Source: an uncultured Clostridium sp. | GTDB lineage: Bacteria; Bacillota; Clostridia; Lachnospirales; Lachnospiraceae | Assembly: GCA_947178475.1 (NCBI GenBank) | Contig: CAMWYM010000015.1 | Coordinates: 1-37,579, forward strand | DNA length: 37,579 bases | Direction of reading: 5' to 3' | Shown here: positions 29,581 through 32,721 of the stretch, one piece after another | How positions within the stretch are numbered: the stretch's first letter is position 1 | How the letters are laid out: the number at the start of each line of letters is the position of its first letter | Notes under the pieces: model-generated | Database searches by the model: none | What the model saw: only the letters and a program-made list of their open reading frames with translations | What the model was told of the DNA's origin: nothing | Translations under genes and position numbers: made by a program

Positions 29581-32259
29581 TCAACAACCCCTGTCCTCAT
29601 CCGACATATATTCCCGCAGGTCCGCATTGGCCCGGTCCATCTCCTCCTTAAGCTCCCTTGCGGACAGTATTGTACAGTCCTGTCCTCTGGTAATCATTTG
29701 AACCAGACCATCAGAGGTTGCTACCGTCACCTGATAATCCTTTGCAATCTGATGGGTCAGCTTCTCAATATAGGAATCTGCAGTTTCATCCTGTTTGGTG
29801 TAAACCACGTGAATCCCCTGATAGTCTGACTTTTCACCGGGATTACCTTTAACCCGGTAACCGTCAAACACCACCATCACTTCACCTTTTATCACTGCCT
29901 GATAATTAGACAAAATATCTAAAAGCCTCATTCGAGCACCGTCTAAATTATCCTTGACCAGGTTCTTGAGTTCATCCCATGCGTGAATGATATTATAGCC
30001 ATCTACAATCAGATACTTCTCCTTTGCCGTCAGCTTTACTTTTCTGTGCTTAGGAGCTTCAACCCGTCCGGCAATGTTCTTCTCATCATAGACTGCGGGC
30101 TGCCGTACCCCTTTTCCCCGATAATGTTTCGACGCCCGCTCATTGGCACGAAAAGTACGTTTCATAATCTCCTCAATCTGTTCCTCATCTATAGACTGGT
30201 GGGAAAGCTCCGCTCTCCTCCGATCCAGCTCACTTTCCTCCTCAAACACTATCTCACTGTTCACATCACCTGCCTTTATATAGCTTTCCACATGCATATA
30301 ATCCGGCACCTGATTCCATGGCACAATAAATCCTGCACCATGGGAACAAAATACTGACGAGGACGGATTAGCCGTATCCTCATCCGGGCGATAATCGATT
30401 TGTTCTACTATCTCCTCCGTATTGTGGCAGGGACCATATCCGCTAAAACTGCAGACCAGCGTTCCTTTCCCGCCGGTATAGGAATTAACCGTTATCGGAT
30501 ACCCTCTCATCGCCACCACCGGCACACTGCCGGTAAGCACTGCTCTTTCCTCTCCCAGCACCGGCGGTTCAATTTTTCCATGCATATTTCCTATATCTGT
30601 CATTGCCCTGCCTACACATTCTGCCGGTACATCCAGTGTGAAATCATAGTATGGCTCAAGCAGCACCGACTGAGCCTGCATCAGCCCCTGTCGCACTGCC
30701 CGATAGGTAGCCTGACGAAAATCTCCGCCCTCCGTATGCTTTGTATGGGCTCTCCCTGCCGTCACCGTGATACGTACATCTGTCAGCGGTGAACCTGTAA
30801 GCACACCAACGTGCTCCTTCTCTTCTAAATGGGTAAGAATTAACCTCTGCCAGTTTCTGTCCAATATATCCTCACTGCAAGCCGTCAGCAGCTGAATACC
30901 GCTGCCCGGCTCCCCCGGCTCTATAAGCAAATGCACCTCTGCATAGTGCCGGAGCGGTTCAAAATGACCAACCCCCTCTACCGTATCCGCAATTGTCTCC
31001 TTATAGACAATATCCCCCTCGCCAAAACGGACATCTATACCAAAACGGTCTGCTATACGCCTCCGCATTATCTCAATTTGCACTTCCCCCATCAGCTTGA
31101 CCTGTATCGTTCCTGACTCCTCCTGCCACAGGACATGTAACTCCGGCTCCTCCTCTTCCATTTGTCTGAAAAACGGCAATGCCTGTATTGCATCCATCTC
31201 CTCCGGAAGCTCCACCGAATAGGTCAGCACCGGTTCTAATGTCGGAAGCCTTGCATCCGTTTCAATGCCAAGACCCTCTCCGGGATACGTCTCATTTAAT
31301 CCCGTCACTGCACAGACAATTCCTGCCGGCACCTCCGATGCTAATTCATACTTGTCACCGGAATAAATACGAATCTGATTTACCTTCTCCTCCCATCTCT
31401 CCTGTATATCATTCCCCGATGCCTCTCCTGCTTCTACATTATGTAAACCTTTTCTTTTCTCTCCAGCAAGGCTGTCCTTCACCCGAAGGCTGCCTCCGGT
31501 CACCTTCATATAGGTCAGACGATTTCCCTGATCATCCCGTGCGATCTTATAAACTCTCGCCCCAAATTTCTGCCCGGAATTCTCAGTGACCATATATTCA
31601 AGCATTCCTCTTAAAAATATATCCACGCCCTCCAGCTTAAGGGCTGAACCAAAATAACACGGAAATACTTTCCTTTTGCAAATCATTTCCGCAATCACTT
31701 CATCGTCAAGCTCCTCCCCGTCTAAATATCTCTCCATGACCGCCTCATCACACACAGCAATCTGTTCTATCCGTTCCCTATCATCCGAACCGGAGAAATC
31801 AATACACCCATCTCCCAATTGTCGTTGAAGCTCTTCCATTATTACCTTTGAATCAGTACCCGGCTGGTCCATCTTATTGACAAACACAAACACCGGAATC
31901 TGATACCGTTCCAGCAGTCTCCAAAGTGTCAGAGTGTGACCCTGAACACCGTCCGTACCGCTGATAACCAGAATGGCATAATCCATAATCCACATGGTTC
32001 GCTCCATCTCTGCAGAAAAATCCACATGTCCCGGTGTATCCAGAAGCGTAATTGTGGTATCCTCACACTGTATAACCGCCTGCTTAGAGAAAATCGTAAT
32101 TCCTCTCTGGCGTTCCAGCTCCTCTGTATCCAGAAATGCATTCCGGTTATCTACCCTTCCGGGCACTTTAATCATACCACTTTCATACAGCAATCCTTCC
32201 GATAATGTAGTTTTACCTGCGTCCACGTGGGCCAAAATTCCTACTGCCAACCGTTTCAT
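29581..32259 (-). CDS. TetM/EF-G-like ribosomal GTPase fused to a C-terminal Rae1/YacP NYN endonuclease domain
   Basis: Residues 1-~690 are an EF-G/TetM-type translational GTPase: G1 AHVDAGKTT, G2 RGIT, G3 DTPGH, G4 NKMD and G5 GSALKLEG, followed by the domain II-V blocks. HTEGGDFRQATYRAVRQGL and the VFCSHGAGFIVPWNQVPDY region belong to domains IV-V. After a basic linker, residues ~748-878 form an NYN (PIN-like) domain close to Rae1/YacP: LIVDGYNIIHAWDEL, VVFDGYRVKG, TKQDETADSYIEKL, VATSDG and ILSAREL, with the acidic residues kept. Rae1 cleaves mRNA in the ribosomal A site. TetM-type factors reach the same site. The ATG at 32259 is preferred to 32268, since AAAGG lies nine bases upstream. 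The protein (892 residues) is ~250 longer than TetM. Confidence 0.88.
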   Translation of the reverse strand: MKRLAVGILAHVDAGKTTLSEGLLYESGMIKVPGRVDNRNAFLDTEELERQRGITIFSKQAVIQCEDTTITLLDTPGHVDFSAEMERTMWIMDYAILVISGTDGVQGHTLTLWRLLERYQIPVFVFVNKMDQPGTDSKVIMEELQRQLGDGCIDFSGSDDRERIEQIAVCDEAVMERYLDGEELDDEVIAEMICKRKVFPCYFGSALKLEGVDIFLRGMLEYMVTENSGQKFGARVYKIARDDQGNRLTYMKVTGGSLRVKDSLAGEKRKGLHNVEAGEASGNDIQERWEEKVNQIRIYSGDKYELASEVPAGIVCAVTGLNETYPGEGLGIETDARLPTLEPVLTYSVELPEEMDAIQALPFFRQMEEEEPELHVLWQEESGTIQVKLMGEVQIEIMRRRIADRFGIDVRFGEGDIVYKETIADTVEGVGHFEPLRHYAEVHLLIEPGEPGSGIQLLTACSEDILDRNWQRLILTHLEEKEHVGVLTGSPLTDVRITVTAGRAHTKHTEGGDFRQATYRAVRQGLMQAQSVLLEPYYDFTLDVPAECVGRAMTDIGNMHGKIEPPVLGEERAVLTGSVPVVAMRGYPITVNSYTGGKGTLVCSFSGYGPCHNTEEIVEQIDYRPDEDTANPSSSVFCSHGAGFIVPWNQVPDYMHVESYIKAGDVNSEIVFEEESELDRRRAELSHQSIDEEQIEEIMKRTFRANERASKHYRGKGVRQPAVYDEKNIAGRVEAPKHRKVKLTAKEKYLIVDGYNIIHAWDELKNLVKDNLDGARMRLLDILSNYQAVIKGEVMVVFDGYRVKGNPGEKSDYQGIHVVYTKQDETADSYIEKLTHQIAKDYQVTVATSDGLVQMITRGQDCTILSARELKEEMDRANADLREYMSDEDRGC

Positions 32260-32350
32260 GTTCTCCATCCTTTACCAAAATCAGTTTCACCTATACCAGC
32301 CTCTGTTTCATTTTAACACACTTTTGTATCAAAAAAAATATAAAAGGAAA

Positions 32351-32381
32351 AGCGGAGCATACTTAATATGTACACCCCGCT
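32351..32381 (-). terminator. Probable terminator after the 76-residue protein gene
   Basis: AGCGG (32351-32355) and CCGCT (32377-32381) close an imperfect hairpin with an inner CATA/TATG pairing. The - strand then reads TTTTCCTTTTATATTTTTTTTG. It separates the small gene from the GTPase gene. Confidence 0.65.
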
Positions 32382-32441
32382 CCGGAAGAAAGGAAATGTG
32401 ATTTCCACACCCAATATTATATATTTGCAATTCTATTATTT

Positions 32442-32672
32442 TCACTTGACCGCTTTGGCATCTAACTGCTTACGACTTTTCACATCAGCAGGTGCCACAC
32501 TGTGGTCCTTAAACTTATAGTATTCATAAGAACTGCATTCTATGAACTTTGCTGCGGGAAGAACCTGCAGTATTTGCTTAATCTCTTTTGTTTCACATGC
32601 GGCCGTTGCCTCTTCGGTATATGGATCGATGACAAGATAAAATTTGTTCTGTTTCTTTCCAAATAATCCCAT
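32442..32672 (-). CDS. Small 76-residue protein, unknown
   Basis: The sequence starts MGLFGKKQNKFYLVIDPYTEEATAAC and ends in a Lys-rich tail. It has no signal or membrane segment and would be soluble, a small alpha/beta protein (YLVIDP strand, KEIKQILQVL helix, AKFIECSS strand). I do not recognise the family. The start at 32672 has GAGGGAG seven bases upstream; a longer frame to 32711 has no SD. It has its own promoter (32722-32750) and terminator, so expression as a separate unit is credible. Confidence 0.7.
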   Translation of the reverse strand: MGLFGKKQNKFYLVIDPYTEEATAACETKEIKQILQVLPAAKFIECSSYEYYKFKDHSVAPADVKSRKQLDAKAVK

Positions 32673-32721
32673 AGACACTCCCTCTTTCTTTGAAAAAAAG
32701 CAAATTATCATTTATAGGCAT

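Follow-up and report, generated by a model that had tools for sequence, protein, structure and literature searches.

Why should a translational GTPase resembling elongation factor G (EF-G) carry a Rae1-type endoribonuclease on the same polypeptide? This question is raised by a gene on the minus strand (29581..32259) of a 37,579-nucleotide stretch of DNA from an uncultured Clostridium sp. of the Lachnospiraceae (contig CAMWYM010000015.1), the whole of which is called the window here. On sequence grounds, we read its product as a translation factor in which a Rae1-type nuclease, tethered to an EF-G-like GTPase of its own, would have taken over the role of stand-alone Rae1, and we put the probability of this reading at roughly 0.5. 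The architecture itself is already in print. Atkinson 2015 described a YacP-like NYN domain on certain proteins from ten Clostridiales species, counted these proteins as Tet and suggested a new mechanism of antibiotic resistance (PMC4342817), which bears out the suspicion of a first-pass annotation that such fusions might already be known. Among the papers listed by our literature searches, which cover few subscription journals and not the first reports on Rae1, it was the only one seen to describe the fusion. Judged by architecture and class, the window protein very probably belongs to the Tet-NYN set of that paper. What is new here is the spread of the fusion, the single group formed by its members, the exclusion and decay of stand-alone rae1, and the loss of the nuclease's tail.

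The gene forms one unbroken open frame (29581-32268, minus strand) of 895 aa counted from the first ATG, to which all residue numbers refer. The ATG at 32259, giving 892 aa plus stop, is the likely start, in agreement with the coordinates of the first-pass annotation, since its ribosome-binding site (AAAGGATGGAG) is better than that of the ATG at 32268; when the start is set at the last Met ahead of the G1 motif, an MK or MR start lies at the same point in 29 of 40 family frames. Pfam domains, all on the minus strand, divide the chain into a G domain with invariant G motifs (GTP_EFTU, E 1.6e-50; residues 7-226, 31591..32250), EF-G-type domains III (EFG_III; residues 345-416, 31021..31236), IV (EFG_IV; residues 419-533, 30670..31014) and V (EFG_C; residues 535-616, 30421..30666), and a Rae1/YacP NYN nuclease domain (residues 752-895, 29584..30015). 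A family-specific stretch (...CHN...SVFCSHGAGFIVPW...MH; residues 589-659, 30292..30504, minus strand) runs from the end of domain V through a C-terminal extension. It is also present in unfused relatives of the GTPase and served to build the search profile A2. GTPase and NYN domain share a single frame at 28 of the 30 fetched loci, the window included, which means that the fusion is no sequencing artefact; the exceptions are L008, with an in-frame stop, and L027, which is cut short. Relatives from the window's genus (L008, G016 and G020) show an in-frame stop or frame break inside the fusion, reflecting either assembly error or decay. A frameshift or a start between the domains was also looked for. 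The window frame is uninterrupted, and in just 4 of 76 fusions, the window fusion not among them, do the 40 codons ahead of the NYN domain contain a start codon that has a Shine-Dalgarno-like site. Separate translation of the nuclease is therefore unsupported and was rejected.

The nuclease part is clearly related to Rae1. Its Pfam NYN_YacP match (residues 753-890; E 5.2e-47) reaches 160.3 bits against a gathering cut-off of 24.6, and the only solved structures that it matched are 5MQ8 and 5MQ9, named YacP, whose organism we take to be Bacillus subtilis. In the alignment, D756, N759, D802, D831 and D853 correspond to D7, N10, D53, D81 and D104 of the solved chains, and these residues, presumably the catalytic residues of NYN/PIN nucleases, are invariant in 77/77 fused and 28/28 stand-alone NYN domains. 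The Rae1/YacP identity proposed in the first-pass annotation is thereby upheld, and a loss of acidic residues among homologues, looked for in the 77 fused domains, was not seen. Of 16 domain comparisons (eight pairs, two domains), Ka/Ks was computable in 14 and lay between 0.018 and 0.112; for the NYN domain, this range holds in the seven of eight pairs that were computable, with values similar to those of the GTPase. Some fused copies are divergent, with weak NYN scores in L115, L117 and L118. At NYN positions 105 and 116, an E-R pair is present in 28/28 stand-alone and 27/77 fused domains, the latter often having two hydrophobic residues there; loss of this pair has the appearance of structural covariation and was left out of the evidence.

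The distribution of the fusion was followed in an order sample (295 genomes, completeness of 95% or more requested, plus the window's own genome) and in a class sample of 228 further genomes. NYN_YacP was found in 272 of the 295 order genomes, in the fusion in 181 and as stand-alone rae1 in 91, leaving 23 without a match, among which G098, where a contig end cuts the GTPase, was counted. In at least 113 of the 181 order carriers, the long frame was directly observed to contain the NYN domain (79 plus the fragmentary G108; 31 plus G201 and G071). The other 68 were assigned from a frame of at least 848 codons round the GTPase extension together with a single NYN_YacP match per genome; two of them (G311 and G258) have a shorter frame, taken as a fragment. 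In the class sample, the fusion is present in 77 of 228 genomes, a count that takes in fragments and a single broken frame (G464). No second intact NYN_YacP gene was detected at E 0.001 in any of the 181 + 77 carriers, which answers the question of whether separate rae1 genes persist in carrier genomes. The second NYN signals that do occur in carriers are fragments in G055 and G079 and below-cut-off matches in G438, G485 and G512; a weak match of the latter type also occurs in G353, as well as in G379, a genome with stand-alone rae1. The fusion is single copy in nearly every carrier, G293 having two complete genes on different contigs (L049 and L050).

The old site of rae1 gives further clues to its fate. 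At several loci, stand-alone rae1 stands in a cysS-mrnC-rlmB-rae1-sigH cluster; both rlmB and sigH were recognised at 25 of 36 stand-alone loci, with rae1 inside the gap, which measures 535-764 bp in 23 of them and about 2.3 kb in two. A search for sigH in 30 genomes, of which 27 are carriers, with 1.5 kb of flank fetched, gave 24 loci, 23 of them from carriers. In 13 of these 23, rlmB abuts sigH (-13 to 193 bp) and no NYN domain is present. Moreover, broken rae1 remnants were found beside sigH in four carriers among 15 stretches tested (best E 3.5e-20 in G079, 4e-11 in G055, 2e-9 in G353 and 3e-7 in G036), so the stand-alone gene has been lost in these four, which span three families of the genome grouping used; G079 and G055 had been chosen for their second NYN_YacP match. 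The fusion may have arrived first and made rae1 redundant. The window fusion itself is flanked by genes other than rlmB and sigH. Three carriers (G498, G070 and G094) have the fusion near this old position, some 3 to 12 kb away from sigH and on the strand of that gene.

The fused nuclease also differs from stand-alone Rae1 at its C-terminus. All 28 stand-alone Rae1s examined end in a basic tail, the final arginines of which line up with R166 of solved YacP, and the corresponding motif is kept in 14 of 77 fused copies and lost in 63, the window copy among the latter. This motif was defined after the sequences had been viewed: a first pattern matched 26/28 stand-alone and 14/77 fused copies, and the simpler pattern that was used matches 28/28 and 14/77. 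At least eight changes in the motif are required on the tree, and 45/77 fused NYN domains, compared with 0/28 stand-alone ones, stop short of segment residue 155. In B. subtilis, the loss-of-function mutations found in rae1 include R166P (PMC6613710). The tail may thus have served access to the ribosome and turned dispensable in the fusion. The linker that joins the nuclease to the GTPase (residues 660-751, 92 residues in the window, 30016..30291, minus strand) is 63-124 aa long in 76 fusions (median 80) and variable apart from one short DEEExxxIFxRT-type motif, which reads IDEEQIEEIMKRTFRAN in the window copy; such a linker fits a flexible tether.

As to the GTPase, 37 aligned members of the family show no variation in the motifs AHVDAGKTT, RGIT, DTPGH and NKxD, except at x. 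Its top NCBIfam match by score is tet_protect, and the database records of several relatives carry TetM, TetW, TetO or TetS family labels. The 416.1 bits obtained are, however, below the equivalog cut-off of 775 and nearer to two EF-G rows (369 and 374) than to four Tet rows (819-852); likewise, the EF-G equivalog score is 291.8 bits against a cut-off of 659.4, where two EF-G rows of related genomes reach 1127 and 1171. The four Tet rows thus pass the Tet cut-offs and the two EF-G rows the EF-G cut-off, while the window protein passes neither. In trees with four Tet and three EF-G rows, it branches outside both the Tet clade and EF-G. The tip of domain IV in the window copy (GRAHTKHTEGGDFR; residues 505-518, 30715..30756, minus strand) carries a family signature where Tet proteins have GLYYSPVSTPADFR and EF-G has GSYHEVDSSEMAFH; the tip HxKHTEGGDFR is common to most fused and unfused members, against YYSPVSTPADFR in Tet and YHEVDSSEMAF in EF-G. 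Within it, K510 aligns with a proline of four Tet rows (L132-L135), taken as the Pro-509 of TetM from the SPVSTP stretch, and the window GTPase lacks that proline; at this position K is found in 75/77 fused copies and 20/23 unfused relatives. In TetM, Pro-509 sits in the tetracycline site (PMC8161019). Judged by these scores and trees, the GTPase is a family of its own, neither EF-G nor Tet, and the label 'TetM-type' that the first-pass annotation had given it does not hold.

All fused GTPases fall into one group in each of three trees (77 rows, SH-aLRT 100; 89 rows; 36 rows), the last with two Tet rows as outgroup. Nested within this group are four sequences lacking the NYN domain, from a Ligilactobacillus salivarius megaplasmid, two Bifidobacterium and one Collinsella, which cluster together (99/90) in the careful tree; L008, whose fusion is broken by an in-frame stop, also lies inside the group in the first of the three trees. 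Other unfused relatives branch outside. The nesting suggests that these sequences may have lost the nuclease; a clade made up of the fused rows alone is not rejected for the GTPase (AU p 0.14). In the NYN tree, from which eight long-branch rows (seven fused, one stand-alone) were left out, a single fused clade is not rejected either (AU p 0.9).

Taken together, the identity of the NYN domain, its invariant acidic residues and the carriers without stand-alone rae1 (or with remnants of it, in four) make a Rae1-like, ribosome-dependent mRNA cut the likeliest activity of the nuclease. Several observations weigh against a takeover of Rae1's role. The two partners' domains would get in each other's way, as domain IV and the Rae1 domain would compete for one A site. 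The loss of the tail could equally signal a changed substrate, and it is partly driven by the window's genus, which supplies 21 of the 77 fused rows, all tail-less (0/21 with the motif within the genus, 14/56 outside it). At the old rae1 site, 3/23 carrier loci have a 614-953 bp gap with no NYN frame that is unexplained or filled by remnants, and 7/23, including that of the window's own genome (a sigH match on contig C116 with no rlmB or NYN within 1.5 kb), lack rlmB within 1.5 kb of sigH. Nor is a closed site peculiar to carriers, since G232, which has neither the nuclease nor the GTPase, also has rlmB by sigH (35 bp). G232 is one of 22 order genomes in which neither the nuclease nor the GTPase extension was found (G029 and G210 are others), which means that the function is dispensable. 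Finally, the GTPase occurs in genomes lacking a NYN_YacP match, namely two Bifidobacterium genomes (one a metagenome assembly of unstated completeness) and five class genomes (G355, G358, G381, G395 and G488), so the GTPase can be of some use on its own.

This last point bears on a more specific proposal, which we put forward tentatively and consider possible rather than probable: the GTPase would be a dedicated delivery factor that permits the cut by hydrolysing GTP when bound to a paused ribosome, and its unfused form would be Rae1's missing partner in bacteria with separate genes for the two. Among order genomes, the unfused GTPase was found in 26 of 91 with stand-alone rae1 and in 0 of 22 without (Fisher p 0.003, uncorrected for kinship; the weak hit in G129 excluded, a few broken genes such as those in G058 and G246 included). 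The same co-occurrence in the rest of the class counts as a point against, at 10/72 compared with 5/76 (p 0.18; G465, G483 and G508 left out). A strict dependence of the GTPase on Rae1, hinted at by the order sample, is made less likely by the class sample as well as the Bifidobacterium genomes, and was not retained. In two genomes that retain stand-alone rae1, an unfused GTPase or its extension appears broken (L071 in G246; G483:C2:55998-56165).

Published work reports or proposes that the ribosomal A site is where Rae1 acts (PMC6613710, PMC12320835, PMC10100781). Because domain IV and the Rae1 domain would share this site, we propose that they act in turn and not simultaneously, which the 63-124-residue linker would make the more plausible course. 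On a paused ribosome, the GTPase would bind at the factor site and use its HxKHTEGGDFR tip to probe or clear the A site; once GTP is hydrolysed it would withdraw, while the linker of about 80 residues holds the nuclease beside the A site. The NYN domain could then enter and cut the A-site mRNA, and rescue of the tmRNA type would deal with the truncated message. In such a scheme, the body of the GTPase would supply the ribosome binding that stand-alone Rae1 may get partly from its C-terminal tail.

Other explanations must be weighed against this takeover. The fusion might simply co-express a Rae1 nuclease and an independent translational GTPase, each reaching the ribosome alone. The two Bifidobacterium and five class genomes with the GTPase and no NYN_YacP match would agree with this, as would the nesting of NYN-less relatives among the fused ones, which suggests nuclease loss (not forced, at AU p 0.14), and the lack of significant co-occurrence of GTPase and rae1 outside the order. 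We nevertheless consider it unlikely, as the loss of the tail in 63/77 copies and the conserved linker motif suggest that fusion altered the working of the nuclease, and as the fusion is kept in 181/295 order genomes by carriers that lack stand-alone rae1. That the nuclease is a degenerate passenger, the GTPase alone being of importance, seems extremely improbable: divergent copies (L115, L117 and L118) exist and most copies are shortened at the C-terminus, yet the five acidic/Asn positions are invariant in 77/77 and the Ka/Ks of the NYN domain resembles that of the GTPase.

Another possible role lies in ribosome assembly or RNA maturation: the GTPase would inspect subunits, and precursors of rRNA or tRNA would be trimmed by the NYN domain, as was once predicted for YacP. 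Atkinson 2015 cites this prediction for NYN in rRNA and tRNA maturation (PMC4342817). The position of stand-alone rae1 next to the rRNA methylase gene rlmB would suit it, YacO being homologous to RlmB (PMC6613710). Against this stand the reported substrates of stand-alone Rae1, which are mRNAs with translation-dependent decay (PMC10632193, PMC10100781, PMC6613710), and the 23/295 order genomes without a NYN_YacP match, and we regard such a role as quite unlikely. Antibiotic resistance through ribosome protection with an added RNase, as Atkinson 2015 suggested for the ten Clostridiales proteins (PMC4342817), would account for the top tet_protect score, the TetM/TetW/TetO/TetS labels and the Tet-like domain order. 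It is, in our view, very unlikely, given a score under the cut-off (416 of 775 bits, compared with 819-852 in Tet rows and 369 and 374 in EF-G rows), a clade apart from Tet and the replacement of the Pro-509 equivalent by K in 75/77 fused and 20/23 unfused members. A single copy in nearly every carrier and the lack of a conserved leader attenuator also speak against resistance.

With regard to the latter, the upstream region of the window gene has an attenuator-like look: a promoter-like site (32445-32416) is followed by a strong terminator-like hairpin (32349..32383, minus strand) ahead of the fusion gene. This hairpin is probably the terminator of a small preceding gene (32442-32711) that has no Pfam match. 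Across the family, terminator-like hairpins lie within 180 nt upstream of 12/86 genes, compared with 5/86 on the opposite strand. Upstream hairpins are thus unconserved, and leader attenuation of the kind seen in resistance genes was rejected. No shared neighbourhood or partner gene was apparent across seven fusion loci compared by eye (L043-L045 and L048-L051). The nuclease-less GTPase of the Ligilactobacillus salivarius megaplasmid (L139 4986-6920) adjoins rpsN, the gene for ribosomal protein S14.

Related sequences were also met in records labelled as phage or plasmid. Two human-faecal 'Bacteriophage sp.' records contain the fusion (L256, MT835563.1, 5421-8018; L257, MT835514.1, 6001-8487). 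Both are UNVERIFIED, unannotated faecal scaffolds; a phage origin is unsupported, and host DNA is a likely explanation. The fused nuclease is also matched by twelve plasmid records of Clostridioides difficile (NZ_CP149721.1 and others), of which the seven listed are 97-114 kb in size and 42% identical, and are annotated as NYN domain proteins. They possibly represent a mobile extra rae1.

A fusion that occurs in 181/295 order genomes and apparently displaces stand-alone rae1 names a candidate partner for Rae1 in finding paused ribosomes, and provides a single protein with which the partnership between GTPase and Rae1 can be tested. In eukaryotes there are systems in which a translational GTPase goes together with cleavage of the mRNA on stalled ribosomes; if the delivery proposal is true, the GTPase would be their bacterial counterpart in logic. 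The findings also suggest that some genes labelled as tetracycline resistance genes, such as those in Agathobacter and Ligilactobacillus records, may be mRNA quality-control or other translation factors.

Compared with known systems, the window nuclease shares with Rae1/YacP (PF05991) the NYN family and the conserved D, N, D, D, D residues, but it is fused to a GTPase, lies outside the cysS-mrnC-rlmB-rae1-sigH cluster and lacks the C-terminal basic tail; to treat this tail (the R166 region) as a defining trait of Rae1/YacP is our own reading. With TetM, TetO and TetW the GTPase has in common the EF-G-type domains G to V in one chain, aligned to the tet_protect model over 8-611, almost its whole length, whereas it belongs to another clade, has another domain IV tip without Pro-509 and scores below the curated cut-off. 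Its domain order is also that of EF-G, and the tip has a His at 508 as in the EF-G rows (GSYHEVDSSE) where Tet rows have Y, although the score of 291.8 is well under the EF-G equivalog cut-off of 659.4. The set described by Atkinson 2015 agrees with the window protein in having a GTPase followed by a YacP-like NYN domain in one frame, in Clostridia (PMC4342817). Our view departs from that paper in placing the GTPase outside Tet and in finding carriers that are devoid of stand-alone rae1 or retain only remnants of it. A takeover of Rae1's role by a GTPase-tethered nuclease would therefore seem better founded than the printed resistance proposal, with GTPase-driven delivery as a plausible mechanism.

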